Positions 6,751 through 47,600 of a stretch of 64,000 bases of DNA are shown here, piece after piece. Position numbers and translations under genes: made by a program. The DNA lies in contig JAODTK010005524.1 of NCBI GenBank assembly GCA_026419785.1, forward strand, positions 124,001-188,000, read 5' to 3'. The notes below the pieces were generated by a model. That model ran no database searches. It was not told the origin of the DNA and saw only the letters and a list, made by a program, of their open reading frames with translations. Every line of letters starts with the position of its first letter. Position 1 is the stretch's first letter. Origin of the DNA: Sclerodactyla briareus (taxonomy: Eukaryota; Echinodermata; Holothuroidea; Dendrochirotida; Sclerodactylidae).

Positions 6751-6797
<47 letters not shown>

Positions 6798-17440: not shown

Positions 17441-17445
17441 AGTCT

Positions 17446-20700: not shown

Positions 20701-20739
20701 CTCATGATGGGCAAATAACGTCTGACAAATTCGATTTTT

Positions 20740-22460: not shown

Positions 22461-23097
22461 ATTCATAACGCATAGAATGTTTCTGTCAAAAACCCCAACC
22501 CTCTGTCCTGAAAGATTGCTGGATACGCAATAACCCCCAGAATCTTGTTTTCGCCGACAATGAATTAGTTGAAGTGATTTCATGATATTTACGGTGATCC
22601 TCGCAAATCCAATAGCGCACTCGCTTCAACACACACACATTCTGTTTGTGTAGAAAGTCCTCTGAAGCTCTAAAAGTTAGCAGTGGCGAAGATTCATCAC
22701 ATCCGTCTGCTAGGGTGAGCAGATGGAAAGGCACTCAGTGCGATAAACGGACAAAATTTTTCGGAAGGTCCTCTGGTTCGCTAAAAAAAAATATATATTT
22801 GCATATCCAGCTATTTTGCCTATATAATACTTCAATTTCAATATAATTAGGCCAATCATAATCAAGCGCATGCTACAATTTCCGGTTAATCTTTCGCTAT
22901 ATTATCACCACCAATTAGCTTTGTTCTTCGAAACAGTACAACTTTTATGGATATTAGCGTTTGACCAGTACAACTGCACGAAAATGTACAATTGCGACGG
23001 AATTCCGATTGAAACATAATGCTAAATTCCGGAAAGATGAAAGTTCCACTCCCCAATAATCGGTAGAATACGCCTAATAAAGTCTCCTGACCGTTTT

Positions 23098-23136
23098 TTT
23101 AGGCTAGCTCACCCGCCCCCCCCCCCCGCCCCCAAA
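23098..23136. repeat. C-rich homopolymer tract
   Basis: A C run broken by one G. Its mirror in the right arm is the longer G run at 46231-46271. The length difference between arms is typical of homopolymer slippage. Confidence 0.8.
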
Positions 23137-23744
23137 TAGAAATCCATAACTAGAAGGAATTCCGTGGAAACCTGTTATGGCATTTCTTCGCAGATTTCAG
23201 GCCTCTTCTGCGAAGTCACAGACGGCCATTTTATCAATGCGGTATTGTGCGCATGAATGAGGGCCCGCGCAAATTTTCTCTTCGCACGCATCTGCGTACT
23301 TCCGGGAATTGCCCATATCAAGTACATAACACGTTTTACCCTGTTTCTTCAGTGCACAAAATGACCTGGCATCCATTCCATGTAAATACTGAATACATAC
23401 CTATTAAAAAAAATAAATACTGTTACGACGACAGGCTCGTTAGGTAGTCGTAACGGTCCAAGATTCTCCCACTTGGGAATGGGCAGTTTTGCCTCACCTC
23501 CCCAATACCTCCTACTTTGCTCATAAACCTAACATACTTCGATGTGTACAGCCAATTCGATATATTCCGTCACCCGTGAGGGGCTGCGATGGTCCTTGGA
23601 CCCCGTCAAGAGGTTACAAGCTTTCTGAACGGGAGGTATTAGCAGTTTGTTTATAAAACTAACAGAGTAAGCAGGGTCCTCCTCTTAAAATTTTTTCGCG
23701 TCCCTTTGGCGTTTTTGAGGATCTAGACTTCCGACCGTTTCATA

Positions 23745-24115
23745 CCATTACCAATGCATGTGATTAACGGTATAGCATCTACCATAACAATGCATGTGAC
23801 ATATTAGTATGGTGAGTACCGAACAAAGCAGTGGTATTAACGTATAGGGAATACTGTTACAATGTACCAATTAACGATTTAGTGAGATAACGTAACAGCA
23901 TGTACTAACCGCAATGGGGAGATACTGTTACAATGCTTATCGATTGACGTTTTTATTTTTTGTATTTTTTTGTTCAGTGAGATAACCGTAACACTGCATG
24001 TTAATCAACTTAATGAGCGATACTGTAACAATGCATTCGATTAACGGTTTTAGTGATATACCGTAACAATGCATGTGAATTAACGGACATCGAAAGATGC
24101 ACGTGAATTAACATT
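23745..24115 (+). repeat. Dimeric ATGCATTGTTA minisatellite, left arm
   Basis: Imperfect tandem units of about 76 bases, each made of two ~38-base halves. Both halves carry TAACAATGCATGTGATTAACG-like words. One half continues as GGTTTAGTGA-ATACCG and the other as AATAGGGAGATACTG. There are about five dimers here against about nine in the mirrored array at 44876-45570. The repeats are degenerate and contiguous with no spacers, so this is not a CRISPR array. Confidence 0.85.
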
Positions 24116-24269
24116 ATACCGACATACTGTCCATGCGTAGCTGCGAGTTATTCTAATTATCAGTACATGTATTTGTGTAACCAAAACTGCAAATATACTG
24201 GTTCATCCTCCTTTTAGTTTAATATCTTATGAAAAAATAATTCTAGTCAACGGAAAAGAATAAAGTTCC

Positions 24270-25420
24270 GGCTTTAGAACGGCATGGAAGGCAAAGTACC
24301 TAACCATTTTATTGATATCAAACCTTATACTGATGAACATCCTCTTTCTGTGTTGATTGAGGAATCGACAGTCGAAGATTGGCCCTCGACAAGCAGAGAC
24401 GAACAGCCATAATTTTCATCACTCCAACGGAGAAGAGTGACGCCACCAATTGGGCCCACGGAAATCAACAAACTGGACGGGTGAGGGAACGCAACAGCTT
24501 CCTAATCTTACAGAGAAAATGATGGACTTGGATACATGTAGAGAATACAATAACATATCCATGGAGTAATATCAGACAACCGGTAAATCCTCATAACTAC
24601 AGACTTGTCCTAAACTGTCCAAGACTTCGTCTCATGAGGAGCGACGGGAATCAAGTGTTTTTGTTAGTCATTGATGGTGTCTCCCCCGGAACTTCGAAAC
24701 AGAGGCAAAATTCAACGGAACTCATGTTCAGTTGTAGCAAATCGAAAGTATCGGGAAGAATCGTTCGAACAATATTCCTTTTAGGAAGAGCTGCGCAGGC
24801 CGAAGGTGTGATGAGATCGAGTAGAATGATGAGCACAAAGACATTCAATTTGGAAGATTTCCATGTTCGTACAGAAACCAACTCTCAAAACTCTGTGGCA
24901 TGGAAATGGGCAAGTATTTATTTCAAGGCTACCTACGTGATGAAATGACGACGATGGGTTTCATTTCAATGGAAACATAGTCGCTCCCTTGCCACTGTCC
25001 CCCCCCCAGAGAGCGATACTTCAAAGGGGCGTCTACTCAATAATGCCCGTCCTTCTCGAAAAAAAAAGAGCGCATAGTCGTTATTAGCGAGAGTGATAGG
25101 TGGAGAGACTTTCCCACATTTTGTAGTGGCCGGGGTTACATAATGTCTGGTGACTTACCCAACCCCAGATATATACAGAGTCATATCATTAATCTTCTTC
25201 CGTTGAGGATGTATTCGTTGGTCTATGTCTGGCGGAGGGACTTTAGGTTAGCAGAGAGAAATAGTGTTGGATCCACTCTGGATGGCTTTCGGCTTCAAAT
25301 TTGTGAATGAATTCAAAGAGTTCTCACACAATTCACTGAAGAACCGCATAAAACTCTTAACGGATTGGAATTATCTACAGAAGAACCCTGGGAATAGAAC
25401 AGGTCGACCAAACGGCAAAC
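24270..25420 (+). other. Unidentified, possibly once-coding stretch, left arm
   Basis: This segment mirrors about 43610-44700 in the right arm. ORFs include 24634-24948. A readable shared peptide frame is GYIMSGDLPNPRYIQSH (about 25136 onward), matching GYIMYGDLHHPVYIQSH on the minus strand of the right arm. I do not recognise the family. Because both arms are recent copies, the shared frame does not by itself prove coding. It could be an exon, an unknown transposon ORF or chance. Confidence 0.3.
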
Positions 25421-26329
25421 CGCCCTGAGACTGAGTGAAGATCGTAGTCCAGAGTCTAAACAGAGGCGTTATTACAAAGCTGAGACAGCGATATATGTAG
25501 TTCCAAAAAATTAGGCCACGTGGTCGCATACACACTTTTGTCTAGCCAATTGCAGGAAACGGAGGCAGGTTGGCAACGTGATCCCGGACGTAACAAGTTA
25601 TCCGCAGATGCCACATGTGTGCGAATAACCTTGGAACATACAAAACGATAAACATACTATTGTGCTTTCACGAAAACCCGCAGAGGGTCGAATGGTTCGG
25701 AATATCAGAGAGCAGCTGTGACGGTGATGGCCGAGGTATACTGTAACGTGACACGTAGGACTAAAACATACATTGTTAAGTTAGGTTTCTCAACAGTACA
25801 TGTATGCTACTAATTAGTATAGTAGTTGGCCCTGGGGCCTAAGTGGGAAGTAGGCCTACGTACAGTTGTGTCATGGTTTACCGATTTGCTCCAGTTCAGT
25901 GTCTACAGTGTAAGTTCTTGCGTATCTTATTACAGGCTACTCCTAATTTCTGTCACCCATTCCATGAATACACCATGATAGGTGAGATTGATAATCGTAT
26001 TCCTAGTGATACATTACGTCCGTTACATTACCTATTATGGCAATTATCATGATCTTTTTGACATTTGTCCTGCACATTTCGACACATGTAGCATTTCTTT
26101 CATTCACCTTCCGTAAGCTTAGATTTCCAATCAATACATTGGGGCCTTGCGACATTGATGAATTGATAGGCCATGGTCCGGGCAATCAAGTTTGTAATAC
26201 TCGAGGCGAAAGAAAATACTTTGTGCCTCGGGAGGATTCTGTTTAGTATATAATATCCGGTCCTGGTTAAGAGTTGCAGTAAACAAACGTTGTGAATATC
26301 TTCTTCATTCAAGAATTTCATCACCTATG

Positions 26330-27665
26330 AAATAGAACAAAATGATTTGCTGACGAATACAGGTGTACCAAGAACCAAAAGACTTAGTGATTTTTGACTG
26401 CCTTCATACCTTTCACTTAACGTTATCAGTTCATCTGTAAATCTCAGATTACCGGGCTTCGACCTGGCCCGAACAATAGGGAACATGTACTCATTACGAC
26501 TACGTGGCGCCCACCTAAACACCAAGACGAAAAACGAATGCTTGTACCGCTGTACCCCCCCTCCCAATGAGAAAACTACACAATAATTTCACCTTGATTG
26601 GACTCAATCATTCTGGACTAACTCTCCCCCCCCCAAACACAAACACAAACCCCAATAGGGGATCATATGGGGAACCCACATACCAAGCATAAGCCCTCCC
26701 TCCAGGTTAAGTCGAGTTATGCTCTTCACAATCCGTTTGAACATCATACAAACATACATACACATACACACATACACAAAGTTTCATGAATCTGCATGAT
26801 TCCCTGATTACAAGCTCAGAAATAAAAAATTCAGACCAAGGATAGATCACATCCACAACTCTACTCACTCCCTTAACAATCAATTAGATACCTAAAATGA
26901 ACCTTGGTGACCGCGATTGAACTTTCTATTTATCAGACTAAAAATACGGATGTCCTTGAACCTCCAGGGACTTCAGATCCTTTGGGCCTGACCACAAAAC
27001 GACAGGAATCATGTACTCATGGGGAACGCAAATACCAAGTATGACTTCATCCCTCCAGATGGGGGTCAAGTTATAATCTTCACAAGCCAGGTTGCACTTA
27101 CCTACACACACAACAACACACGAAACACACACACAACACACACACACACCACACACACACAGACTGTCAGGAATAAAAATTCAGACCACATATAGACCGC
27201 ATCCACCCACGTCGTATAATAACAATCAAGCAAACTTTTGAATTCCGCCTAAATTATCCAAATAGATACACTAAAGACATCTGGTGACCCCGAATCAACT
27301 TTCAAAATATTTATCAGACTAGCAGTAGGATGTCTTTGACCTCAGATGGACTATGGGCTGACCCCAAAACAATGGGACATGTACCATAATGGGGGAAACG
27401 CACATACCAGTATGAGCTTCATTCATCCCAGGTGGGGTCGGGTATGCTCTTATAACAAATTTTCCCAATTCTCCATTTCCTCAAATGATCCTGAACGAAA
27501 GTAAAAAAAAACACTAGATGCTTGTATTCCACATAAAAAAAAGCTACAAACCGAATCCAGCTTGATTGGACCAAATCATCTGGACCTATCCTCTTCACAG
27601 GGATTTTCAACGCTGACCTCTAATCACCTAAGAGGACACATTGACCGGATCCCAAAAACAATAGG
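26330..27665 (+). repeat. ~330 bp tandem repeat array S2, left arm
   Basis: About four degenerate units with the anchors described for S1: CCTGGCCCGAACAATAGGG (26464), GACCACAAAACGACAGGAATCATGTACTC (26990), CTGACCCCAAAACAATGGG (27357) and ACCGGATCCCAAAAACAATAGGG (27645). ACACAC microsatellite runs at about 26751-26780 and 27100-27160 are embedded. The mirror array is S5 at 40800-42640. Confidence 0.8.
27100..27162. repeat. (CA)n microsatellite
   Basis: About 60 bases of ACACAC with single-base interruptions, within array S2. ORFs crossing it (26938-27156 minus) are low-complexity artefacts. Confidence 0.9.
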
Positions 27666-28639
27666 GAGAACTATCAATTAAAGAATAAAAAAATTAAAAT
27701 AAAATATGAAATATTATCCATATAGATCCATATCTCTTTCCTTCATGACAGAAAAATGAACACTTTAAATAAACTAAACTAATCTTTCATGCAGGGACAG
27801 ACTCCAAAAGTCATAATCATTTCGGTCCCTTCACCTCAATTCGCGTATAGAATGTGTATATTGTTATTGTATATATCGAATTGTATTGATTGTATTGTAC
27901 TTTATTTATATTAGTTCTTCAGTATATTCACTATCTAAAATTAGTTGTAAGAATGGCATAATTGTAAATGAAGGTGGAAATAACACTGAAACTTGGGAAT
28001 ACTTCTTCTTGCCCCAGGGTCATCACACTGAGTATGTCGTCATCACGTATTGTCGGCTACGATGATATATTGGCAGTCGAAACTGCCATCTCTGGTTCTA
28101 AGCGTCTAATCACCATACCACAGACAACGTTGGTTAGCTGGAATGAGGGACCACACAACAATTGCTTGCTCATCATCTCGTCACTAGGCAAATTGGGAAT
28201 TGATTGTGTGTTTTTTTTTTCTCGGAAGTGGGTGGTTTGCGTAATGGTCCGCAGCGCGGAATGAGCGCCCTCGCCTCAGTGTGTGGTGACTACGAAAACG
28301 TCGCGTATACAATCATCGGAGTGCTATTCTCAAATATTTTGTTTCGCAAGTACTGATGTTGATTTTGACTGCATTCGGAGATTTATGATAGTCCTGTATT
28401 GACGTACATAACAACATGCCTGACGTCACCACTCACATATAGTCCAGATGAGACAGTGGCCAATTGAATCGCTTTATTGTGCAGTGAAATGCGTCAACGA
28501 CAGTGCTTCACACAAAAGGGCCATAGTGGATCACTAAACACCCAATTTGATCGATAGGTTCTCCGTAGTGCTTCATGTTCCATGGATAGTATTAATAAAA
28601 TGAGTAATAGGCAGGCGAGGAGGCCAAAGAGGGTTTTCA

Positions 28640-29236
28640 TCACAGAACTTGCCCCTTGAACCTAGTGACATAGGGATGACCCTCCTGGACGACAGGTGCC
28701 ACATTATTGTGGTTTTTACTGCGGCCTGAGGAGTTATTTTATCAAATGACAATGATTGATTATTTCGCATTCTCTCATGTCATGTCGAATTCGGATCGCT
28801 GGCAAATTATAGACTGAAATAAACGTTTCAATGGTCAAAATCTGTTCAATTTCGACTTGAAAAACGACAGAATCAAAGTTTATATGAATCCGTTCAAAGT
28901 TTGAAAAGGGATCGTTGAAATTGTTGAAATATTTTCGTGTCGGCCGATGCTCGTATTTTACGTTTCCTGGGAAATTTTGTCTGAGAAAAATATGTATCCC
29001 ATACTATTTCCTACAGACATTTCAATGTGTAAGTATTAGCCTCTCCCCTCGTCCGCTGTTTAGAGTTACGCGTTCAAAAGTCCGTTCCCAGTACAATTGC
29101 AACCACTTCAAGGTCAAAATACCAACTGGTCCAAGGAGCTGCTCCCTTGGGGGGAAAAGAAGCGCTTGGATTGTTTATTGTCCGTGAAACCGGCCGATCG
29201 GCCCAGTTCACTTGTCACCCGGCAGGGGAGGATGGT
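28640..29236. other. ~595 bp segment present only in the left arm
   Basis: Left-arm sequence up to AGGAGGCCAAAGAGGG (28617-28632) pairs with right-arm 39957-39971, and left-arm GTTAGTGACGG (29237) pairs with 39941-39950. The intervening ~595 bases therefore have no partner in the right arm. I see no terminal repeats, poly-A tail or coding motif that would identify it as a known element. Confidence 0.7.
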
Positions 29237-29571
29237 GTTAGTGACGGAATGTATTGGCGGTATGTTATCATCCCGAGCAGTGGAATTAAACTTAGTGCTA
29301 TTATCTAGCATACATAGTTCGTTCAGTTTATCGGCATGTATAGGTATACACGAGCCTATAGCTGTAGCACTGAGGTCGGGCTGCGAGCCGTCGAATGTTT
29401 CCTAGGGGCAGATTATACCTTTGTCAGATTGTTGGGTAAGATGCATGATGTATACAGTTCTATACGAAAGTGCTTCTGATAAAAGGTTTTAAAAAGAGGG
29501 CGTTGTGTTTTGAGGGGTATGCATCAGAAACTTGGGGTACGGTCTTTTCGGGGTTTTAGCAAAAGATAGAA

Positions 29572-29572
<1 letters not shown>

Positions 29573-29602
<30 letters not shown>

Positions 29603-29650
29603 ATATATATTATATATATATATAATATATAGATATTATATATATATTAT

Positions 29651-29672
<22 letters not shown>
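29573..29672. repeat. (TA)n microsatellite
   Basis: About 100 bases of TA dinucleotides with small interruptions, just inside the spacer of the large inverted repeat. Confidence 0.95.
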
Positions 29673-29681
<9 letters not shown>

Positions 29682-29884
29682 AGGAGCCATGCTGTGTACA
29701 TGCAGTACGAACGCACGTTCGTCTGATCCTGGCGGGGTGATTATTAATCGCTGCGTTACTCTATTCTGATTTCGCCGGATTGGGGAAAGTGATCTGTTTT
29801 CTTATTGTCGCCAATAATTAGGGCTTTACAATTGGTGATGTTTCCATATGATCACCTCTACGAAGAGTAATATATGCGGTCATG

Positions 29885-30960
29885 ACAATATGCGTGTGTG
29901 TGGTGTGTGTGTGTGGTTGTGTGTGCATGTGTGTGACGCCAGCCTTGTGAAAACGATAACTCGTTCCCCCTTAGATAGAGTACATAAGCCATAATTGCTT
30001 TGAGGTCGGGTCGAAGGTCATCTTGGATCAAGAGGAGGTCAGTCTGAAGTCTTGTTAACACACGAATAAGTCCAGAATGCCTTGTTCGATCAGGTAGGAA
30101 TTTTGTATGCAGCTTTCTTATGGGGCGTACAGGAACCCTATTATTTTTGGTGTGAATTGAAAGTTAGATTTGGGGGGAGAAATGGGAAAATTGTAAAATT
30201 GATAATTAGGCAAACTTTAACTGGTTAACTCGAACACACCTCAAGCGAAGCTCTTCTTTGGTTGTATGGGTTCCCCTCATTGGTAAATCATCCCTATTGT
30301 GTCGGGGTCAGTCAAAGGTAATCTGCGTCAAGACGACGGTCAAAGGTCTGCCTGAAAATCTCGGAACCACGTTAAGTCCAGAAAAACCCTATTTTTGTGG
30401 TAGACTGGAGTCAGTTGAGGGAAAAAAACATGAGAAATTGTGATCAGTTGATATCTTGGCCAACTTTTAGCTTGTTAACACAAAACTCGATTTACCCCGA
30501 AAACATCGATGGATGAACTCATCTGATCTGTAAGTATGTGAGTTTCCATGCTGAGTACATGCATCCATTGTTTTTGCGGCACTGGGATAGATTATCCGAG
30601 GTCAGACAGGTAACGTCTGAATATCTAATGACATGACCTGGTAACACGATAAGTCCAGAATGGGTTGACAGGTCAAGCTGAATTTTGTAGGCAGCTTTCT
30701 CATGGGGGAGTACAGGCAACCCATGTTTTTTGTGTAGACCTGGGTCATTTTCGGGTAAAATTTGGAACTGTGGAACTTGATAGTTTGGCAAATTTTGTGT
30801 TCTTAACACGAAACTCAAACACCTAGTGGATGAAAACTTCCCTTTTGGTATGTGGTGTCCCATATTGAATACTGATCCCTATTGTTTTGGGGTCGGTCCA
30901 AGGTCATCCCCAGTCAAAAGGGTTAAAGCCTGGAAACTTCAAGTCTTTGATTTTTTTAAA
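29885..30960 (-). repeat. ~330 bp repeat array S3 (reverse orientation)
   Basis: About three units in the opposite orientation to S1: TGTTTTGGGGTCGGTCC-AAGGTCATC (30881), CATGGGGGAGTACAGG (30702), GATCAGGTAGGAATTTTG (30088) and TCCAGAATG. A GT microsatellite (29890-29935) opens the array. The array stops where non-LTR copy A' begins at about 30961. Confidence 0.75.
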
Positions 30961-30961
30961 G

Positions 30962-32826
30962 CCTCATGACCGTAGCGTAGTGTATATGGCAAGGTAGACT
31001 CGCTAAATTGAACGATTCCACAGGACGGAGTTTAGGGATCACCTGGTCTCCCACCCTGAGGTTCTTTATTTCTTGTTTTCATTTGTTTCTTCATTTGGCG
31101 TGGCATCCGCCTTTGAAACTAAGTCAATCCACTCAAGCATCTCATGTAATTTGCGATTCGTCCTTGTATTATGCATGGCCACCACAAACTCTTAGATTGG
31201 ACTACCCTGATGAATGACGCTCGTGGAATTATGGATGAAAAGAGCAAAAAACCTATATAGGAACTATTGAACGCATGCTATTCTTCGCCCTAGAATGTGC
31301 CCGTTTAGCCGTAACTATAGCTAGTACTGATATAATGTAGCTACACGCACTCCCGAATTTAACTATATTATCTGAATCACATGCGTATCAGACACGCGGG
31401 AATTTAATACTCTCCGTGGATACGTAACAACTGAACTCGTAGTCAACAATTACAGCACTGAAACCTTCCCGCGTCTAACCCATTCATTGTTTAAGTAGCT
31501 GAAACCGAAAGTGACAGTGTCAGGTATACAGGTAGGCCTACAACGAAGTTTGTGTACCTGTTCATTTACCTTCACTTAGTCCTTGACGTCGAAGTGACCT
31601 GAGAGCTATGCTAAATAGGTAGCCCGAGTTATCATTGTGTAAAATGTGAGTTACAGATGCTTTGCTATAACCAGTTGTCCACTAATATCCCGTTTCTAGG
31701 TTAAATACAGATAACGACTGTTCGTAAATGCGAAGTCTTCATGACAACTCATGAGTGTGAAATATTATCTCGAAGTTCTTCTCAGTTTCTCTCAAATATG
31801 GCAGTATTATATCCGCTAGGTATACTTGGTAATTCATTTGTTTTTACAAGCATATATACAATGGGAAGAAGTCTCCCAAAGCTGTACTAGCTGACAAAGC
31901 AGGAACTCCCTGTAAGTAGTGAAAAGAGAGTGGGAAAAGAATCATTACACACTTAGTGACATTAGATAGTCCCAGTACAACACATTCATATCGTAACATT
32001 ACCACAATGAATCAAAGTTGTATCAAGATAATCGATCTTTTGGCAACATGTTTCCAAGAATTTCACTTATCAGACTATTGCTAAATAATCTTTTGTTTAG
32101 TTTTAATTTTGTTTTGCCACGTGTGAGTGAACTCATACTTTGGCAGCACGACTTATAGGGCTTCACATTCTTACAGACGAATTAATTCATTAAGTCACGT
32201 GCATTGTCGGTTTGCCTAGTCATATCGTGGTACCTCTGCATTCTGGTAAAGTAATTATAAATGCATCAGGTAAAGTCCAGGTGGCTATGTCTTATAAGCG
32301 ACATTAAGTCGGATTATGTCTTCTAATTTAATAGTTTTTTAAGACTCTTAAAAGTTGCTAGTATGTTCTCGTGAACGACATGTGAGATATGTCGTATAGC
32401 CCCTTCTGTAGTACATATTAAGTGGCAGCCATCACAGGTACCGATAAGATAGACAGCAGTACGTTATCTGGGCGGCCGATTAGAGTTCTGGTAAAAAAAA
32501 AAACTTTGTCATCCGCGCGGAATGTTTGAATTGTTGATCATTCTAACTCTATGGTGTTTTTGTGCATGTTCCTTCTGGGTAAGCTTACTATCGAAAACAA
32601 CACCCAAAAATGCGTGTTTTACGTGTTTTTAGACATTATCACCCATAGTAATATCTTCATCCCTGCTTGGGTTTGTACAGCGATTGAAAGCATTATATTT
32701 GTCCTACCACAATATTGATAGACACTTATTCTCTTGCAACCAATCATTATAACGATCAGTTCAGTTTAGTTTTAGTGAAGGGTCAGGAAGGAACAGAAGA
32801 CTCTGAAGCCCAACATCCCAAAGTGG
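30962..32826 (-). mobile_element. Non-LTR retrotransposon, copy A' (5'-shortened)
   Basis: Collinear with 17446-19255. It shares the same terminal CTCATGACCGTAGCGTAGTG, then TTCATTGTTTA, GTGACA/GTGACG words, CTTATAAGCGACATTAAGTC, GTTCCTTCTGGGTAAGCTTA and finally GGGTCAGGAAGGA (about 32780). Only the RT thumb end is present (about 32560-32660). The RT core found in copy A (19255-20700) is missing. The shared 3' end and differing 5' extent are what target-primed insertion of a 5'-truncated copy would leave. Confidence 0.85.
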
Positions 32827-32879
32827 GATATTTGACCAGTCTTGATTATTTTTTCAAAATTGCTCCTTAAGTTGAACAT

Positions 32880-33480
32880 ACGTCTGACAGAACATAAAAT
32901 TTCATTTTCCCCCAAACCAACGCACTGTCTCTTGATAAGGAGCTCCACACTTTCAAGGTTTTCGACTATGACCTCTGGTGACCCTCTGGTGACCTAGATT
33001 ACCTCTGACCTGACCCCAAACAATAGGTTCATGTATCATCATGGGGACTACATGCATATACCAGTATAAGTTTCATCTCCAGTTGGAGTCCAAGTTATCG
33101 TGCTTACGACCAAATTGGCAAAAATTTTTCTATTTTTTCCTATTTTTTGGGTGGACAAAAATGCACCCCGACCTATTACCAAAAAACAATAGGGTCATGT
33201 CTTCCCCTTAAAAAAGTCATCACAAATTTTCAACTTGATCGACCACATTCCTGGACTATGGACATATTTACAAGGTGTTCATACTTTGATCTCTGGAGTG
33301 ACCTTCAATAACCCTGACCTGACCCAAAACAATAAGGTTCATACTCACATGGTGGTCACACTTACCAATTATGACCTTCATCCATCCATGGGTCGAGTTT
33401 ATCGTGTTTACAAGGTTGGCGTTACATACGTCACCACATACACACCTACATCCACCATCCATCCACACTGTCAGACTGCA
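32880..33480 (+). repeat. ~330 bp tandem repeat array S4
   Basis: About two units in the S1 orientation, with CTCTGACCTGACCCCAAACA (33003) and CCTGACCTGACCCAAAACAA (33311). The segment just before it (ACGTCTGACAGAACATAAAA) matches the sequence that opens S1 (ACGTCTGACAAATTCG at about 20719), so the junction with the array is also shared. The ORF at 33235-33606 lies across this array and is not a gene. Confidence 0.8.
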
Positions 33481-33499
33481 TTGATTCCCAACTTCGTCA

Positions 33500-34560: not shown

Positions 34561-34599
34561 AAATCATTAGGTTAAAATGGATTTCTGCGAGTTTTTTGC

Positions 34600-35455: not shown

Positions 35456-35456
35456 A

Positions 35457-35472
35457 AAAAAAAAAAAAAAAA

Positions 35473-35505
<33 letters not shown>

Positions 35506-35539
35506 AAAAAAAAAAAATAAAAAAAAAAAAAAAAAAAAA
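35457..35539. repeat. A-rich tract interrupting the Gypsy pol
   Basis: About 80 A residues with three interruptions, between the RNase H end (GRG at about 35545) and the integrase N-terminal segment. On the coding strand it reads as poly-T. Related elements have no such tract at this position, so it is an expansion, an insertion scar or an assembly artefact. Confidence 0.9.
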
Positions 35540-35544
35540 CCCAC

Positions 35545-36800: not shown

Positions 36801-36999
36801 ATGCTATTCACCTCATTTGTTCAATTCCTTCAACCTATCAGGTACCGTGCTCTCATATCACGACAATCATTCACGCTGGTTTGGGCATAGCTAATACACC
36901 ATAATTCAGTGTCAAGGGGTGGGGGGGGGATTGACAACGGTAAATGAGGAATTTAGGCCTAGAATGGCTGGACCTTTCACATCAGCTACATAAACTCAC

Positions 37000-37210
37000 A
37001 TCAATTGCCACATCACGGAAATTGGCACTTGATATTTGCCAGATCCATAGTGCTGTGTAGGGGTGTCATTATATGCCATAACTACGACATCAGATGGTTG
37101 CATGAGTTTTCGATCAGTGTCACCTTCTTACCCCACGACTTTGTACTTTGACGAAAATTCTCAATCGAGACATTTCCCCTGCCCCTGTGTCAACTTTTAA
37201 CCCTTAGGGT
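37000..37210 (-). pseudogene. Gypsy aspartic protease fragment
   Basis: The minus strand reads LKVDTGAGEMSR (about 37201-37165), which contains the retropepsin active-site triad D-T-G-A followed by small residues. It lies between the zinc knuckle and the RT, where Gypsy elements carry protease. The remaining protease core is frame-broken. Confidence 0.75.
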
Positions 37211-37479
37211 TGCTGGCTTGTCTTAAAACAAAGCCCAATATTCCGAAGTTGGTACAGGCTTCATTATCCATCTTTTCCATTATTGTTGTAGAGTACACAG
37301 AATCAAATTCAACTCGCAATTGTCGACTAGTCCGATTTATCAGAAAACATTTCATTATTAAGCACTGTTGGCAGCTACTCTAGCACGAGTGGCATCTGCT
37401 CATGCTTTTTTGGGTTGACGATTTTTGGATTTGGAACCTACTCCTCTGATTGATGGTTATTAAGAGATCCCATCACGTT

Positions 37480-38230
37480 TACGCTGCCTACAAGCAACCT
37501 TCCAATGTCCTAATTTACCACAATAGTTTCACTCGTACCCTCGCAGGACATTGTTTCGTGTGGATAGCTTAGACCACCATTAAAAATACTTCTTGTTGAG
37601 TTCCCCTTTGCATGGCTACTAGACATTGCATTTGAATCCACGACATTGTAGGGTATTTAGGACATGCATGTGGCTTTAGTTGCCTCCGTAAGTACGAGCT
37701 ATATTCATGGCAGCATCTAGTTATGTATCATCTTTTGCCTAAGAGTCTTTTCTTGTACATGCTTTAGGTGTTTGCCACTCATGAGCTGCTTAATAGTCTC
37801 GAGGCGTTCTCATCTTGCTAATTTTACACTTTATCAGCCTGTATCCGACATCGAGTCATAAAATATCTACTGTTCCATTTGCAAATTGAGTATGTTTTTC
37901 GGACTTGAATCGCAACAAACGATCATTTGTTTTCGCTCAAAATGCTTCTCAAATAGCTCAAACATTTTGTTCAGGTCCTCCTCTGTTGGTTAGTTACTGA
38001 CCAGGTTTCTAGATATTTTATGGCTTGTTGCCCATCCACATAAAGACATACGTACCCTGTTTTCCTTTGGGACACTTAACAATGGGCCAGCAAACATTAA
38101 ATTGCAATACTCTTGAAGTTTTTGGAAGGTGTTGGAAGATCTGACGACTCCCATCAACTGATGGGGGTGTTACACCAGTAGACCTGTCATTCCTTTTAAC
38201 AATGATGTGATTTAGCGCTTATAGGGAATC
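37480..38230 (-). pseudogene. Gypsy gag region with CCHC knuckle
   Basis: A zinc knuckle is readable on the minus strand at about 37530-37482 as NYCGKLGHWKVACRQ. It gives C-x4-H-x4-C spacing, with the first cysteine lost to a TGA in place of a TGC/TGT codon. Upstream (37900-38160), fragments resembling gag capsid text of related elements can be read, such as AGPLLSVPKENRV. The start codon is not identifiable. Gag assignment beyond the knuckle rests mainly on position. Confidence 0.65.
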
Positions 38231-38239
38231 AAACTGCCT

Positions 38240-39289
38240 ATGCCGGACACCCATTACTAACATGTAACCACTAGGCTTAGCTTAACAATAATCGATATTG
38301 CACGTAATAGTGAACGATAGGATAGGGGTAACAATGGAAAATGTGGGTAATAATATTATAGGCAAATGTTTTGAACTCACCAGTAATTCAATCACTCACA
38401 TTGATGAAAAATGTTCACATGAATTAAATGATAAAAGGCTCCTCGAGTCCACCAGTCCATTCTGTGAAGCTTCCAGTTGAACCAGATCAGACCAGGCGCG
38501 TCTCGTCGCTAGCGGGCAATACTGAAGTTGGCGAACATCAACTTCGCAAAAAAACGTCACCAGTTAAACAGCACTTCAATCTTCCCAAATAACGGCGGTT
38601 TTGGACCGACGCCCTGCTGCGTGTACGTATGGCAATCGCCTTCGTCATCACTCGACCAGTCTCGACCACCATTCATGGGTTTTTTATACGGACTCACCCC
38701 GGAAAAAAAGTGTCAGCTCCACCGGCGTTGGTACTGACGGAATCCGGACCAGCTCGTCTGCTGTATCCTCAGCGCAAACATCGATGCGACCAGGTAATTG
38801 CTGCGTCACAGCCCGAGGTCCGCTTACATCAGTAGGAGAGAACACCATCCAGTCCCAGGATCGTTAGACCCTTGACGACGACACGACCAGACACCTGTAG
38901 TATCAATCAATCTTGCTCCAATCCCGGAGTAGATTAGGTCCTGGACGCAAATAGATTAGCGTCATTCCTCCGTAGTTATTACCAACGTATCACAGCAGAT
39001 CAGATGGATAATAGCATTGTGTCCCTGTTCTGTCTAAGGAATGGGGGTTGAACCTCGTGCTGATAGCTTTGTTAAAAATAACAGTACACAAGTATGACGT
39101 AAAGTATACAAAGTCAATCTCGGTGAAAATAACTGCCAACTTGGCTACATACGAAACTAAGATGCGACTGTTCTCGTCATTCTGTCTGCCCGTCCTCGGA
39201 ATATCGGAATAATTTCACAGCATGGTGAAATGCCACGTGTTAGTTCCATAGTTTCTCACCGTATAATATAGCAGAAAAATGTTCCTCTT
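38240..39289 (-). other. Gypsy 5' leader / unassigned
   Basis: This stretch lies between the putative primer binding site and the recognisable gag. It contains ORFs on both strands (38528-38867) with no recognised motif. Part may encode the gag N-terminus. At about 1 kb it is long for a leader. Confidence 0.4.
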
Positions 39290-39301
39290 CCGCTGCCACC
39301 A
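39290..39301 (-). other. Putative primer binding site (tRNA-Leu type)
   Basis: The minus strand reads TGGTGGCAGCGG, directly after ACA, a usual LTR end. The plus-strand text CCGCTGCCACCA equals the 3' acceptor end, including CCA, of metazoan tRNA-Leu (AAG-type), as I recall that sequence. Its position, upstream of gag in element orientation, is correct. Confidence 0.7.
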
Positions 39302-39606
39302 TGTATATGTTGTATGCGTCTGGGTCTGCATGGTGAGAGAATAATAAAGCACGTGGAGAACTAACTGGTATGAAGAACTTATTATTACTATAAAACGTTG
39401 GGAAATACATGGCTAACTACAGACACCGACTTTTACTGCGTCGGTTTTGGTCGCTGACAGAGACAGAGTGAGAGGAGCCCGATCGGAAGACGGTGACTTC
39501 TCTTATGTACTGATGCAAATTTTTACATTGCATCATTTATTGGTCATTTAACTATGAGATGCATTGGCTAAAATACACATGGTAATGAATTATCATATCA
39601 CATATA
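39302..39606 (-). repeat. Putative 5' LTR of the Gypsy element
   Basis: The inner edge is set by the primer binding site (…ATACA next to TGG). The outer edge is uncertain; TGTGATATGATAATTC near 39606 starts with TG and would give about 305 bases. An AATAAA on the minus strand (39536-39541) could be the poly-A signal. No partner LTR was found near 34.5 kb, so this call rests on one copy. Confidence 0.5.
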
Positions 39607-40020
39607 TAGCACTAAATTCCACTGCTCGGGATGAATACATACCGCCGATACACTCCGTCACTAGACAACCAAACCTCTGTGGCCTCCTCGCATGCTATTA
39701 ACTATTTTTATAAGTACTATCAGTGGAGCATGGAGCATGACAAATGAAAACAATCTGACACAAGGTATCTCCGCCCCTATTAAACATCGACGCTCGCAGC
39801 ACGAACTCAGTGCTCAAGCGTATAGGCTGCTGTGTATAGCCTATATATGCCGAATACTGACTGCTGAACTATATATGCATATATAGCCCTAAATTAATTA
39901 AATTCCACTGCACTGATGAATACATACCGCCAATACACCCCGTCACTGACATCCAAAACCTCCTTGGCCTCCTCGCCTGCCTATTAACTATTTTATTAAG
40001 TACTATCAGTGGAGCAGAAG
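39597..40020. repeat. ~287 bp direct tandem duplication
   Basis: 39597-39740 and 39882-40020 share CTAAATTCCACTG, GATGAATACATACCGCC, CACTCCGTCACT / CACCCCGTCACT, GGCCTCCTCGC and AAGTACTATCAGTGGAGCA in the same order. The duplication sits at the inner edge of the right arm and next to the Gypsy LTR. The left arm has only one copy. Confidence 0.85.
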
Positions 40021-40799
40021 GCACACTAAACGAGAACACAAATCGATCAAATTGTAGTGAAGCCCCGCTACTGTGCGAGCAGCTGTCGTTGACGGATTCA
40101 ACTGCAGCAATAAGGGCGATTCAATTGGCACTGTCTCATATGTGACCTATAGTGAGTGTGACGGTCAGAAATGTTGCTATGTACATCCATACCGGACTAT
40201 CACGAATCTCCGATTGCAGTCAAGTCAGCATCACAGCACTTGCGAAACAATATTTGAGAATAGCACTCCGATTCTTTGGATACGCTGACGTTTTCCGTAG
40301 TCACCACGCACTGAGGCGAGGGCTCTCATTCCTCGCTGCGGACCATTACGCAAACCCCCATTCCGAGAATAAAAAAAACACTATCATCAATTACCCAAGG
40401 TTGCCTAGTGACGAGATGTTTGCAAGTATTGTTGTCCTCATTCCAGCTGAACCAACGTTGCCTGTTGGTATGGTGATTAGACTGCTTAAACCAGAGAATG
40501 TCATTCGACATGCACAATAATATCAATCGGTCCAGACATACGTATGACGACATACTCCAGTGTTTATGAAGCCTGGTCCAAGAAGAGTATTCAAGTTTCC
40601 AAGTTTTTCTTCACCTCATGAAATACAAGTATGCCATTCTTACATAAATTTTACATAGTGGTCCCTGCATGGAAGATATGTTTTTAGTTTATTTAAAGTG
40701 TTCATTGTTCTTTTAGAAGGAAAGAGATTGGATATATATGGATATATATGATATTTTAATTTTAATTTTTTTTTTTTTTTTAATTTCTTGTATGATATT

Positions 40800-42640
40800 T
40801 TATCCCTATTGTTTGGGATCCGTCACTGTCATCGCGGGTGATTAGAGGTCAAAGTCCTAAAGATCCCTGTGAAGAGGATAGGTCCAGAATGATTGGTCCA
40901 AATCAAGCAGGCTTCGGTGTGTAGCTTTTTTCCATGGGGAGTACAAGCACTCTATTGTTTGTTTTTGTTTTTCACTTCACTTCGTTCATGGATCATTTTG
41001 GAGGAATGGAGAGATTGGAAAATTTTGTTTATAAGAGCTTCAACCCCGCCCCCACCTGGATTAATGACAGCCATCCTTGGTATTTGAGTTTCCCCATTAT
41101 GAGTAAATATCCCTATTGTTTGGGGGTCAGCCCCAAGGCCCCCCCCCCCCCATCTTAGGTCATTGGAGGTCAAAGACATCCTACCGCTAGTCCTTAATAA
41201 ATTTGGGGGGAAAGTTGACTCGGCGTCACCAGAGGTTTTAGTGTATCTATTTGGATAATTAAATCGAAATTTCTCAAGTTGCTTGATTGGTTATAGATGC
41301 GTGTGTGGATGCTGTCTATATAGGTTCTGAATTTTGTATTCCTGAACAGTATGTGTGTGTACGCGTGTGTACGCGTGTGTGGTGTGTGTGTGTGTGGTGT
41401 GTGTGTGTTTTGGTAGGTGTGTGTGTGTGTGTCTGTGTGCATGTGTGTATGTAAGTGCAACCTGCTGTGAAGAACATACCTCGACCCCATCTGGATGGAT
41501 GAGCCCATACTTTGTATGAGAGTATATTATGAGTACATGATTCCTGCATCGTTTTGTGGTCATGCCAAAGTCATCTGAAGTCCTGAGGTAAAGACTCCTA
41601 TTAATTTTTGATCCTGAATAATTTGAAAGTACTCGGGTCAACCAGAGTCATTTTAGTGTATCTATTTGGAAATTTTAAGCGGAAATTCTCAAGTTTGCTG
41701 ATTGTATAGGACGTGGTGTGGATGCGGTCTATAGATGGTGTCTGAATTTGTATTTTCCGGACAGTATGTGTGTGTACGCTGTGTGTACGCGGGGTGGGGT
41801 GGGTTGTGTGTGTGTGTGTGTGTGTGTGTGTAGGTGTGTGTGTGGATGTCCCTGTGTGCATGTGTGTATGTAAGTGCACACTGGCTTGTGAAGAACATAC
41901 TCGACCCCATCTGGATGGATGAAGCTCATACTTGTATGAAAAGTATAATATGAGTACATGCTTCCTGTCGTTTTTTGTGGTCAGGCCAAGGTCATCTGAA
42001 GTCCCTGGAGGTTACAACACTCCTATTTTGATCCTGATAAAATTTGAAATTGGCCTCGGTTCACCAGAGGTCCTTTTAGTGTAATCGAATTCATTTGTTA
42101 GGAGTTTGTGGATGTGATCTATCCTTGGTCTGACTTTTTCTATTTCTTGACTGTAATCCATGGAACTATGCATCATGAAACTATTGTGTATGTGTGTATG
42201 TTGGTATGTATGTTTGTACCCTGTTTCACAACCTGGCTTGTGAGGACATAACTCGATTCAACCTGGATGCTGGAGCTCATGCTTGGTATGTAGGTTCCCC
42301 AAACCGTATCCCTATTGTTTTTTTTGTTTTTTGGTGTTGTTTTTTTTTTTTTTTGGGGGGGGGGAAATTAGTCCAGATGATTGGTCCAATCAAGCGAAAT
42401 TTATTGGTGTATTTTCTTATTGGACGGTGTCAAGCATTTGTTTTTCGTTCTTGGTTTGTGGGTTCCACCTGCTGATACATGTTCTCATATTGTTGCTTCC
42501 AGGTTATCAGATTACTTGGAGTGAAAGGTCAATGACGCAGTCAAGAAAAATCACTAAGTCTTTTGGCTTTCGGTCACCTGATTCGTCATCAAATCATCTG
42601 TTTTTCTATTCGATAGGGACATTCTTGAATGAAGAGATAT
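40800..42640 (-). repeat. ~330 bp tandem repeat array S5, right arm
   Basis: About five units in reverse orientation, with words such as CCCTATTGTTTGGG, GGTCAAAG-CCTA, CTCGACCCCATCTGGATGGATGA (41483 and 41908) and AGTATAATATGAGTACATG. GT microsatellites lie at 41350-41450 and 41766-41860. The mirror of S2 but longer. ORFs on the minus strand rich in His/Thr (41194-41959) are translations of the GT/CA runs. Confidence 0.85.
41350..41450. repeat. (GT)n microsatellite
   Basis: TGTGTG runs with single-base interruptions over about 100 bases. A second, similar run (41766-41860) sits about 415 bases further on in the next array unit. Confidence 0.9.
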
Positions 42641-43640
42641 TCCACAACGTTTGTTTCGCAAACGCCAACTGAGCCGGAGGGTGTATATAACAGGATCCCC
42701 CCCCGGTGGGCACAACTATTTCTCTTTTATGCTCTTTCGCTCGAGTATTACAATTAATTGCAAGAACCATGGCCTATCTATTCATCGATGTCGCAAGGCA
42801 ATGTGTTGAATTGGGCAATCTCTCTTACCGTAAGGTGAATGAAGACATGTAAATGTGTCCGAATTAGAGGAAAATTCAAAAATATGATGATAATTTGCCA
42901 TAATAGGTAAATAGTGAACGACACGTAATGTATGCACTAGGAAAACGGTGTCAATCTCACTATCATTATTTATTCAATGGAATGGTGACGAATGGAAATA
43001 ACCTTGTATATAAATCTACGCCATAGAACTTCAACTGTAGACCCTGAACTGGAGCAAATCGTAACCATGACCCGAATGTACGTAGGCCCTACCTCCCACT
43101 TAGGCCCAGGCCTAACTTTACTATTACTAATTAATGCATACATTGTCTGTTGAGAAACCTAACCTTAACAATGTATGTTTTTAGTCTATACGTTTTCACT
43201 GTTACTGATTACATCTGCCATCAAAGCCTTCTCCTCGATAATTCCCGACCACTTCGAACCCTCTGTTTTGGTTTCTTGAAAGCACATTGTATGTTATCAG
43301 TTTTGTATGTTCCAAGGTTATTCGCACACATGTGCAATCTGCGTATACTGGTATACGTACGGGATCACTGTTGCCTTGCTCCGTTTCGCTTGCAAGTTGT
43401 AAACAAAAGTGTAGTATGCGACCAGTGGACTAATTTTGGGGAAGCTATGGCGCAACTTGAGCATATATCGCTATCTCAGCTTTGTAATTAGGCCTCTTTT
43501 TAACTCTGGGACTACGATCGCATCCTCATTGCGGTTTGCCGTTTGGTCTACATTTTATATTTTCAGTTTCTTCTGTAGATCATTCCAATTGTCAAGAGTT
43601 TTACCCGGTTACCTCTAGGGAAGTGTGTGAAACTCTTGAA

Positions 43641-44048
43641 TCACAAAATTTGACAATCCGTTTCCGTCCAGTTAGTGAAATCCACACTATTTCTTCTCGG
43701 TGAACCTTGTTTGCGCCAGACATAGACCAACGAATACACCAAAGCGGAGAAAAGGAATTGATAATGACTCTGTATATATACTGGGTGGTGTAAGTCACCA
43801 TACATTATGTATCCCCGTGCCACTCCCAAATGGTGGGAAAGGGCCTTCCCACCGTATTCACTCTTGCTAACAAACGACTTGCTCGTCTTACTCTGAGTAT
43901 GACGGGCATGTTTTATTAGACGCCCCGTAAAGTAATCGCTCTCTGGGGGAATTGCAAGGCAGCGACTATGTTTCCATTGAAATGAAAACATATCGTCGTC
44001 ATTTTCATCACGTAGGTACCTTGGGACAAATAATACTTGCCCTTTCAA
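43641..44048 (-). CDS. Unidentified ORF in right arm
   Basis: This 135-codon ORF is the longest outside low-complexity sequence. It includes SFQWKHSRCLAIPPESDYF and GYIMYGDLHHPVYIQSH. The mirrored left-arm sequence carries a related frame (GYIMSGDLPNPRYIQSH near 25136) but is broken elsewhere. I recognise no domain, and there are no signal peptide or membrane segments. The neighbouring ORF 44406-44765 minus (119 codons) could be an upstream part of the same unit. It may be an unknown transposon protein, a captured exon or chance. Confidence 0.3.
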   Translation of the reverse strand: MKGQVLFVPRYLRDENDDDMFSFQWKHSRCLAIPPESDYFTGRLIKHARHTQSKTSKSFVSKSEYGGKALSHHLGVARGYIMYGDLHHPVYIQSHYQFLFSALVYSLVYVWRKQGSPRRNSVDFTNWTETDCQIL

Positions 44049-44405
44049 TGGCCATCAAAGTTTTGAGAGTTAGGTTTCTGTAAGAATCATGGAAATCTCC
44101 CAATATGAATGTCTTGGCTCATCAATTCTACTCGATTTCATCGGCCACTTCGCCTGCTCAGCTCATCCTAAAGAATAGTGTTCGAACGATTTTCCAGATA
44201 CTTTTCGATCTGCTACCTTAAACCTCTGAGTTTCCGTTGAATTTGCCTCTGTTTGAATTTCCGGGGGAGAACCATCATGACTAACAATAAACACATCCCG
44301 TCGCTCATTCAGTACGACAAAGGCTTGGACCCTTTAGGACATCTGTAATTATGAGGATTTACCGGTGGTCGTGATATGACTCCATGGGATATGTTTTTTA
44401 CCCTA

Positions 44406-44765
44406 CTACATTGATCCAAGTCTCATCTTCGCTATAAGTTTAGAAGCTGTTGCGTTCCTCACCCTTCCATTTGTTGGCTTTCTCCTGGCCCCAATGGTGG
44501 CGTCCCACCTCCCGTTGGAGTGATGAAAATTATGACTGTCCTGTTTGCTTGTTCGATTGCAAATCCTCGACGTCGGTTCCTCGGCACACGAAAAGGAATG
44601 TTTCATCAGTAAAGGGTTGATATCATCCCCCAACATGGTATGAACTTTCCTTCCATGTCGTTCTAGGCCGGGAACTTCTTTTCTTCTTCGGTGTACTAGA
44701 GTGTCCTTTTCATAAGAGATAGAAAGAAAGGAGATGAACAGTATAAGTTTCAGTTTGTTACACAA
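44406..44765 (-). CDS. Unidentified basic ORF in right arm
   Basis: This 119-codon ORF begins with a hydrophobic stretch (LKLILFISFLSI) and then becomes Arg/Lys/His-rich (HRRRKEVPGLERHGRK, GARRKPTNGR). The left-arm mirror (24250-24500) is frame-broken and lacks an equivalent ORF. No family was recognised. It lies about 360 bases upstream, in the same direction, of ORF 43641-44048. Confidence 0.25.
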   Translation of the reverse strand: MCNKLKLILFISFLSISYEKDTLVHRRRKEVPGLERHGRKVHTMLGDDINPLLMKHSFSCAEEPTSRICNRTSKQDSHNFHHSNGRWDATIGARRKPTNGRVRNATASKLIAKMRLGSM

Positions 44766-44875
44766 ATAAATTTACTGAATATTTAGAATCACTCGCCACT
44801 AGCATGGACAGTATGTCGGCATACTATTAATTCACGTGCATCTTTCGCTGTCCCGATAACTCCATATATTGTTAT

Positions 44876-45570
44876 GGTATTTCACTAAACCGTTAATCGA
44901 CATGCACTTGTTACAGTATCTCTCTATCACGTTAATTCACATGCATTGTTATGGTATTAATTCCTAAACCGGTATCGATATGCATTGTTACAATATCTCT
45001 GCTGTTACGGGTTTGATTCCATGCATTGTTTACGGTCTCACTAACCGTAAAATCGACTGCATTGTTATAGTTCGTCTCTATTACGTTGATTCGACATGCA
45101 TTGTTATGGTATTTCACTAAACCGTTAATTGTCATGCATTGCTACATATCGCCCGATTTGACTAAATCACATGCATTGTTCGGTATTCACTACACGTTAA
45201 TCGAGTCATTGGTAAGTATCTCACTATTAACTCAATGCACATGCATTGTTACGGCATTTCCCTAAACTACGTTAGTCTTGCATTGCTACAGTATCTCCCT
45301 ATTACTTCAACGCACATGCATTGTTACGACGGTATTTTCTTTCACTAAATCGTTAATCGATATGCATTGTTACAGTATCTCCCTATTGCGTTAGTTCACA
45401 TGCATTGTTACGGTATCTCAATATAAACCGTTAATGGACTGCATTGTTTACAGTTCTGCCTATTCCGTTACTCCTACATGCATTGTTACGTTATCTCCCT
45501 ATGCTACTATTTCACATGCATTGTTATGGTAAGCTTGCTCTAGCAAATAGCCGTTAATCCACATGCATTG
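44876..45570 (-). repeat. Dimeric ATGCATTGTTA minisatellite, right arm
   Basis: About nine imperfect dimers of about 76 bases. Halves read CGTTAATTCACATGCATTGT followed by TACGGTATTTCACTAAAC, and CGTTAATCGATATGCATTGT followed by TACAGTATCTCCCTATTA. Reverse-complement counterpart of the shorter left-arm array. Confidence 0.9.
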
Positions 45571-46230
45571 GTCACCGTGTATGAAAGGGTAGAAAGTCTA
45601 GATCCTCACAACGCCACAGGTGAACATTTTCAAAAAGAAAGGGACCCTGCTTTCATGTTTATGTTTTAAAACACCTGCTCACACCTCCCGTTCGGAGAGG
45701 ATTGTCAACTCTTGACGGGGCCCACGGACCATCGAAGCCCTCACGGGTGACGAATCTATCGATTGGCTTTACACATCCGAAGTATGTTAGGTTTTCTGAT
45801 TCAAAGTAGGAGGGTGTATTGGGGAGGTTGGGCCAACTGGCTCTCCCCATGTTGGAGACTTCTTGTACCGCACGACTTACCTAACAAGCCTGTCGTCGTT
45901 ATAAACAGGGGGGGTTTATTTTTTATAAAAATTTTGTTTTTTTATTGAATCGGTATGTAGTGTTGAACCATGGAATGTCTGCCAGGTCATTTTGTGTCAC
46001 TTAGAACAGGTAACTCAGTGCCTCCACGTGAAGGGGCATTCCCGGAGCACGCGAATGCTTGCGAAGAAAATTTTGCGCGCATCAGTCATGCACAACAATC
46101 CTGTTTTGTGTAAATGGCCGTCTGTGCTTCGGCGAAGAGGCCTGTTAACAAGTGACTCAACTGTATGAAATAATCTGCCATTAACCCGGTAATCAACTGA
46201 ATTTTCCTCACTAGTTCTGTATTTCTCTCT

Positions 46231-46271
46231 GGGGGGGGGGGGGGGGGGGAAGGGGGGGGGAGGGGGGGGGG
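46231..46271. repeat. G-rich homopolymer tract
   Basis: About 40 bases of G with two A interruptions. It mirrors the shorter C tract at 23116-23136 in the left arm. Confidence 0.9.
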
Positions 46272-46829
46272 GCTGGAAAAATCTAGCCTAAAACGTATCA
46301 TGTAACTTTTTAGGTGTATGCGACCTATTATTGGGAGTGGCCGATTTTCTGCTTTCGCGGAATTTAGATAATGGTTTCAACATATTCTGTCTTCAATTGT
46401 CATTTTTCGTTACGGTTGTAATGTTTCAAACGATATTCCCACATAAGTTTACTTTCGCGGAAGAACAACGCTAATTTTGGTGGTGATAAATATAGCCGAA
46501 AATTTATATCGAAATTTCTCGCTTTGCGTTTGATTATTATTGGGCTTAATTAATCACGGAAATTGGTACATTTTATTAGGCGATTATCTAGATATTGCAA
46601 ATTAGATTTTTTTTCCTAGCGTAGCCAGGCGCTCCCGAATGTTTTTGTCCTGTATCGCACTGAGTGCCTTTCCAATTCTGCTCCCCCTAGCAGACGGATG
46701 GGCTTAATCACGCACTGCTAACATTCTCAAGCTTCAGAGACTTTCTACACAAACAGAAATGGGGTTTGAAGCGAGTGGGCTATTGGATTGGGAAGATCAA
46801 CTAATATCATGAAATCAATTTAACTAATT

Positions 46830-47600
46830 TAACTAATTTCAAATGGACTGGCAGGTGGGTCCCTGGTAGTATTGTAGGTATAAGGCCTGAGCCATTATAA
46901 CTATATATATAGTTCTAATGAACTGAAAACTCTGGCTCATGTAGAGTTTCCATGAAGTTGTTCTGTAGTGACCGTGTAGTGTGACCTATCATAATAGAAC
47001 GGTAGGCTATAGCCTAACTCCACTGTTGGTTCCCTCCATGTTCTTCTTGGGACTTGAGGGGACTGGAGCACTATGCAGAATTGCTAGGCTCGATAATACC
47101 CGTCCACTTTACTTGATTAATCATATCAGACTGTTTTTCTCATGGCATAATTTTGTCCGGGGTACAACACGGGGCTTACTTCCAGGAATAACAAGAATAT
47201 CATGATCAATATTTCTCCACATCCTGTACGTTCACATGACTGAGAATAAACATTTGTGCCTTCGAATATGCTGCCCCTGCTGCTTGTTTCGAGAATCTAG
47301 GCGGCATTGTAATGGGCCTACCATATCGTCATGAAGGATTGTAAGCCTAACTTGGGCACCCAAATACTGGGTTCGGAGACCTATGGACGATACAACGGGG
47401 CTCTTTGAAAAATTTGGCTGTAAATTTGGTGCTGGGTAATTTGGGATTACAGGTCGTGGAGTGTTGCGGTTTTTAGAAGAGGGAAATGACCCGTTTAGAT
47501 AGATGGATGCTTTCAGTGAAAGACAAAATTCGGTTCCGGCTAAAATTTTGTCCGCGTGTTCTGTTCGTTTCATGCTATGTATCACGCGCCGCTAACTCAT
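46830..47600. other. No gene recognised
   Basis: Sequence beyond the right-arm edge. ORFs at 46981-47205 (plus) and 47232-47585 (minus) carry no recognisable motif. The latter might hold the degraded 5' part of the following non-LTR element, but this was not supported. Confidence 0.4.

Follow-up and report, generated by a model that had tools for sequence, protein, structure and literature searches.

A probable old inverted segmental duplication carrying relics of a galactosyltransferase gene in the sea cucumber Sclerodactyla briareus

Two long stretches of a contig from Sclerodactyla briareus (JAODTK010005524.1, assembly GCA_026419785.1) read as reverse complements of each other, which raises the questions of whether the palindrome that they form is real and by what route it came about. 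The DNA analysed (the window) is 64,000 bases long, corresponds to bases 124001-188000 of a contig of 214177 bases, and is free of any N. Self-BLAST of the window identified 22561-29433 and 46831-39749 as reverse-complement copies lying in mirror order, in five pieces with 72-81% identity (Table 1). This chain of pieces bears out a preliminary description of the locus as an imperfect palindrome of ~24 kb with ~7 kb arms, and the interval between the strong matches agrees with the spacer of ~10.3 kb given there; the statement that the palindrome "dominates the window" is fair with respect to length, but not with respect to significance. A comparison more sensitive than self-BLAST placed the outer arm edge at 22561/46831 and followed a weak inner arm tail (65%) as far as 29669/39513. 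Near the inner end of the right arm lies a 118-base direct repeat (39613-39730 and 39899-40016, 286 bases apart, 88% by self-BLAST), and the two halves of the spacer gave no match to each other in a sensitive comparison.

The matches follow the mirror order that had been proposed from anchors along both arms, with 398 of 486 complex 13-mer mirror hits falling on a single increasing chain. The 19-base pair singled out earlier (28238-28256 and 40334-40352) is exact, and the longest exact mirror match extends over 35 bases (25612-25646 and 43300-43334). The top mirror piece scored 1966 bits in self-BLAST, compared with at most 32.8 bits for dinucleotide shuffles of the left arm (n = 50) and at most 63.5 bits, among the four matches listed, for the right arm reversed without complementing. 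Mirror-strand pieces total 5602.6 bits and same-strand pieces 236.2 bits, as obtained with the low-complexity filter off, such that simple repeats are counted on both sides. Two mirror-order copies on one contig, the arrangement that defines an inverted segmental duplication, are present here beyond chance. With 20 kb of contig added per side, the arms were not lengthened by any of the 45 best matches in the self-comparison. The added DNA does form a few short inverted pairs (~0.15-0.48 kb, 69-82%) with the flanks or the spacer, off the mirror positions. Self-BLAST also identified a second, smaller inverted pair (57592-58450 and 61065-60262, 71.7%). A C run of ~70 bases (6735-6804, 94% matches), long for a G/C homopolymer, may mark a spot where the assembly is weak.

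Table 1. Coordinates of the palindrome and of the features within it (window positions; paired entries give left-arm / right-arm positions)
Feature	Position	Strand	Identity between arms	Basis or remark
Mirror piece 1	22563-24081 / 46829-45234		72.4%	self-BLAST
Mirror piece 2	23985-27451 / 44955-41470		75.7%	self-BLAST
Mirror piece 3	26881-27798 / 41668-40661		75.3%	self-BLAST
Mirror piece 4	27929-28636 / 40660-39955		80.6%	self-BLAST
Mirror piece 5	29236-29433 / 39951-39749		79.0%	self-BLAST
Left arm, main part	22561-28640	+		mirror chain with 46831-39946
Left-arm core, 3.8 kb	22561-26350	+		genome search; elsewhere in the genome only in the right arm
Minisatellite, few units, left arm	23741-24100	+		pairs with 44845-45531
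Putative beta-1,3-galactosyltransferase relic, left arm, frameshifted	~24850-25310	+		alignment with right-arm relic
Decayed array of dispersed tandem repeat, ~300-base units, left arm	26350-27670	+		matches on other contigs; unit structure
Dispersed 580-base repeat, left arm only	28637-29216	+		copies elsewhere; empty site in right arm
Left arm inner end, past nested repeat	29236-29433	+	79.0%	match to 39951-39749; 65% tail to 29669
Spacer, ~10.3 kb, repeats in part	29434-39748	.		between strong arm matches
Putative Ty3/gypsy-like retroelement fragments, spacer	34851-36128	-		RNase H-like and integrase-like pieces
Right arm	39749-46831	-		mirror chain with left arm
~300-base-unit array, right arm	40661-42600	-		one extra unit of ~420 bases relative to left arm
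Beta-1,3-galactosyltransferase relic, right arm	43641-44112	-		in-frame stops and frame change; PDB and PF01762
Minisatellite, expanded, right arm	44845-45531	-		self-matches; many more 38/77-base units

Alignment of the left arm (22561-28640) with the right arm gave 73.5% identity over 5745 aligned columns. We use this figure in preference to that from a global alignment (71.6% overall, K2P 0.358), which takes in the inner end (28640-29700), misplaced owing to the nested repeat. Six segments of the arms are 70.8, 71.0, 73.9, 73.4, 76.5 and 74.2% identical (K2P 0.283-0.371), i.e. the arms have diverged by ~27%; so small a spread points to a single event without subsequent arm-wide homogenisation, and uniformity of this kind (70.8-76.5%) is as expected from one event followed by neutral drift. 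Mismatches are overdispersed (variance 2.8 times binomial in 50-column windows), a clustering that could stem from alignment errors, from constraint on particular blocks or from short tracts of conversion. Four 60-column windows reach 57/60 identities, but such single high-identity windows are near chance, because the best 60-column window in 200 column permutations averages 54 and reaches a maximum of 58. The arms appear to have drifted without arm-wide gene conversion, of which the alignment gives no sign. Codon-like mismatch periodicity was not observed, the largest chi-square (7.4, overlapping 240-column windows) being located in the repeat array. Comparison of the translated arms gave matches in several frames of either strand, and the mismatches show weak periodicity, so that nothing besides one relic of a galactosyltransferase gene points to conservation of the arms at the protein level.

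The clearer form of this relic is in the right arm. With stops read as X, it matched beta-1,3-galactosyltransferase 5 (B3GALT5, PDB 8zwp_A) with an E value of 6.7e-11 and, more weakly, four distinct sequences of beta-1,3-N-acetylglucosaminyltransferase 2 (E 0.0093-0.011); five of the seven rows from this PDB search are galactosyl- or N-acetylglucosaminyltransferases, the other two being unrelated (E 0.68 and 1). The curated Pfam cut-off for PF01762 (23 bits) is passed in one of the two lengths scanned: a 400-residue stretch, picked after the first match, scored 25.2 bits (E 1.7e-5, profile positions 50-186 of 195), and the first-scanned stretch of 1478 residues scored 22.1 bits, just below. 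The single open frame scored 18.2 bits, below the cut-off; several stops break the frame, and a second frame bears part of the domain. Open frame 43641-44054 alone returned no galactosyltransferase from the PDB (one match, to an SbcCD subunit, E 0.24), and the stretch upstream in the right arm returned nothing up to E 10. An MT-RNR1 match in the scan of the relics (E 0.085), far below the cut-off, was ascribed to chance. The left-arm stretch is more broken: against PF01762 it scored 18.2 bits (E 0.0023; 16.2 bits in a longer stretch), under the cut-off of 23, and its single frame matched nothing in the PDB up to E 10. Its assignment as the galactosyltransferase counterpart, which is the weaker of the two, follows from alignment with the right arm. 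An intact galactosyltransferase reading frame is absent from both arms, each with stops and frame changes, and the two relics face each other across the spacer.

The window contains 43 open reading frames of at least 100 residues, 17 of which were scanned against Pfam. Of seven frames scanned first, two matched at E 0.01 or lower, namely to Galactosyl_T and RT_RNaseH_2 with scores under the cut-offs; of a further ten, one matched within a limit of E 0.1, at E 0.078. Twelve of the scanned frames (two of the first seven and all ten of the second set) lie clear of the arms and of the retroelement fragments, and the match at E 0.078 is the only one among them. A Pfam scan of the arm core, covering the sense frames plus short left-arm pieces, identified no transposon domains in the frames scanned; matches to COX7B (E 0.063), CR_prot_dom_plant (E 0.021) and Mito_fiss_reg (E 0.38) were far below cut-off and were considered chance. 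ARAGORN identified no tRNA in the window.

The copy number of the arms was assessed by searching the genome assembly (319,486,128 bases, 3171 contigs). The left-arm core gave six matches in the 319 Mb genome, all on the same contig, one being the query itself and five the right arm; in this search (22560-26350) the first look yielded two candidates, both scored, and very common words were skipped, such that a missing match is no proof of absence. The copied segment is otherwise low-copy in its core, as is not the case for a mobile element, and the further arm copies that a foldback or long-terminal-inverted-repeat transposon should have left elsewhere were not seen for the left-arm core in the genome search. 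At the sensitivity of this search, the left-arm core has no counterpart beyond the palindrome itself, so that the arms are very unlikely to be copies of a transposon. When the whole left arm was used as the query there were at least 119 matches, those on other contigs covering window positions 26367-27995 only (40 of 2482 first-look candidates scored, making the counts lower bounds). Besides the array of ~300-base units, these positions include a second dispersed repeat (~27726-27995). The unit structure of the array was derived from 15 of 37 fetched loci. The ~300-base-unit repeat forms short tandem arrays on many contigs, and resembles either a dispersed satellite or a transposon that carries an array within it.

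Two further repeats distinguish the arms. Tandem Repeats Finder identified the 38- and 77-base units of the right-arm minisatellite at 44868-45502. The 580-base repeat nested in the left arm gave 47 matches, 41 of them on other contigs, at 75-85% identity (a lower bound, with 40 of 1586 candidates scored); its alignment mixed both orientations, and the same-strand rows and flanks alone were used. The right arm is uninterrupted at the corresponding position, with an empty site near 39951-39955. As the left arm is filled and the right arm shows an empty site, the insertion is placed after the duplication.

All six frames of the spacer half 29650-34600 were without a Pfam match at E 0.05 or lower, and the other half gave matches in two of six frames, with retroelement pieces in one and SR-25 and NPR3 in the other; the latter two, located at an A run (35456-35539), were rejected as low-complexity. 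The retroelement pieces match PF17919 (RT_RNaseH_2, E 0.00027, 35790-36128) and PF00665 (E 0.00082), both below the Pfam cut-offs, and these sub-threshold domains suggest a Ty3/gypsy-like element. Stretches of the spacer match other parts of the contig. One of 2.5 kb (30955-33414) is directly repeated at 17436-21859, to the left of the left arm, with up to 81% identity over ~1.5 kb, and is perhaps a dispersed element. Self-BLAST also identified a direct pair flanking the palindrome (12828-13401 and 54101-54670, 74%), perhaps a dispersed repeat.

Inverted duplication was the first of three origins proposed in the preliminary description, and it is well supported by the mirror copies, the low-copy left-arm core, the even divergence, the broken galactosyltransferase relic shared by both arms, the one-sided nested insertion and the lack of codon-like periodicity in the mismatches. 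We consider it highly probable (approximately 0.87) that the palindrome arose long ago as a local inverted segmental duplication and has since decayed. Another of the proposed origins, a head-to-head joining of two haplotypes or of a chimeric read during assembly, would correspond to a known type of assembly error, the inverted join. Here, however, the arms are ~27% apart (K2P 0.28-0.37), whereas allelic divergence even in very variable animals is well below this; judged against that general background, the arms differ by more than allelic divergence alone. A dispersed repeat has inserted on one side with an empty site in the other arm, the left-arm core showed no third copy in the genome search, and the window is without N, all of which make a misjoin very unlikely. 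We regard it as equally improbable that the arms are two copies of a large transposon or the ends of a single element whose terminal inverted repeats are very long. The arms do include genome-dispersed repeats, and retroelement pieces lie inside the spacer, but the 3.8 kb core was found nowhere else in the search with the left arm, the matches on other contigs (40 of 2482 candidates scored) are confined to part of that arm, the arm contains a host-type galactosyltransferase relic, and the arm-core frames scanned lack a transposon domain.

The possibility that the structure is kept for a purpose, e.g. as a source of hairpin RNA or as a gene-conversion palindrome, might draw on the four near-identical 60-column windows and the overdispersed mismatches. 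Those windows are near chance by permutation, the divergence is far too high for arm-wide gene conversion, and the whole window has no Rfam match at gathering score, so that we give this explanation scarcely any weight. The same applies to any role that the arms might have kept after death of the gene, e.g. as a source of dsRNA or small RNA acting on such galactosyltransferase genes as survive, or as a hot spot of recombination that continually reshapes the locus; a present function is probably absent, none being indicated. An ancient direct tandem duplication, one copy of which was later flipped by a local inversion, is also unlikely, but distinctly less so than the other alternatives. It would yield the same final product, with breakpoints now too decayed to distinguish the two histories, and the direct pair 17436-21859 / 30955-33414 is present at this locus; on the other hand, it requires two events rather than one and has no positive pointer. 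Since both it and the preferred explanation are old local duplications ending in inverted orientation, the two overlap and their odds are not exclusive.

In the inverted segmental duplication that we favour, a segment of ~6-7 kb would have been copied in reverse orientation beside itself, probably in a single event. Along with the minisatellite and the repeat array, this segment would have carried a beta-1,3-galactosyltransferase gene, either intact or already disrupted. Both copies would then have drifted like neutral sequence, with the minisatellites changing length separately, and the 580-base dispersed repeat would later have entered one arm. Part of the 10.3 kb spacer was probably added after the duplication via transposon insertion, and the arms may at first have lain much closer together. 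A short original spacer would be compatible with an origin by fold-back or template switching, without demonstrating it; because the breakpoints have decayed, fold-back template switching is indistinguishable from other routes.

The palindrome is real, and is an ordinary instance of a well-known kind. Inverse orientation is common among local duplicates: young intrachromosomal duplicates in humans show it in 77 of 143 cases, about half, and most of the newest local duplicates of C. elegans are inverse (PMC4546093; for C. elegans also PMC2728529). These animal duplicates likewise comprise a gene-bearing segment copied in reverse within one chromosome (PMC4546093, PMC2728529), but the pair described here is much older and both its gene copies are broken. 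In the springtail Folsomia candida, 11 of 15 within-scaffold blocks are reported to be palindromic and to have arisen via inverted duplication (PMC5490193). The springtail palindromes are likewise inverted blocks inside one scaffold; they are, however, made up of genes in collinear order, and the synonymous rate given for one block is 0.2, whereas each arm here contains a single relic gene (PMC5490193). Mammalian sex-chromosome palindromes also have a spacer flanked by a pair of long inverted arms, and their arms are described as >99% identical through gene conversion (PMC8981503); in contrast, the arms here are ~73% identical (73.5%, 5745 columns), nowhere near 99%. Origin-dependent inverted-repeat amplification (ODIRA) is one proposed route to inverted copies (PMC10766186), but neither a triplication nor a fresh junction is recognisable here at this age.

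The locus is chiefly of use as a caution: before such a palindrome is taken from raw sequence as an assembly error or as a large mobile element, its divergence should be estimated and its copies counted. It also shows an inverted duplication long after it formed, in which the arms are ~73% identical and keep their mirror order, the gene has died in both copies, and a nested insertion places the events in order.
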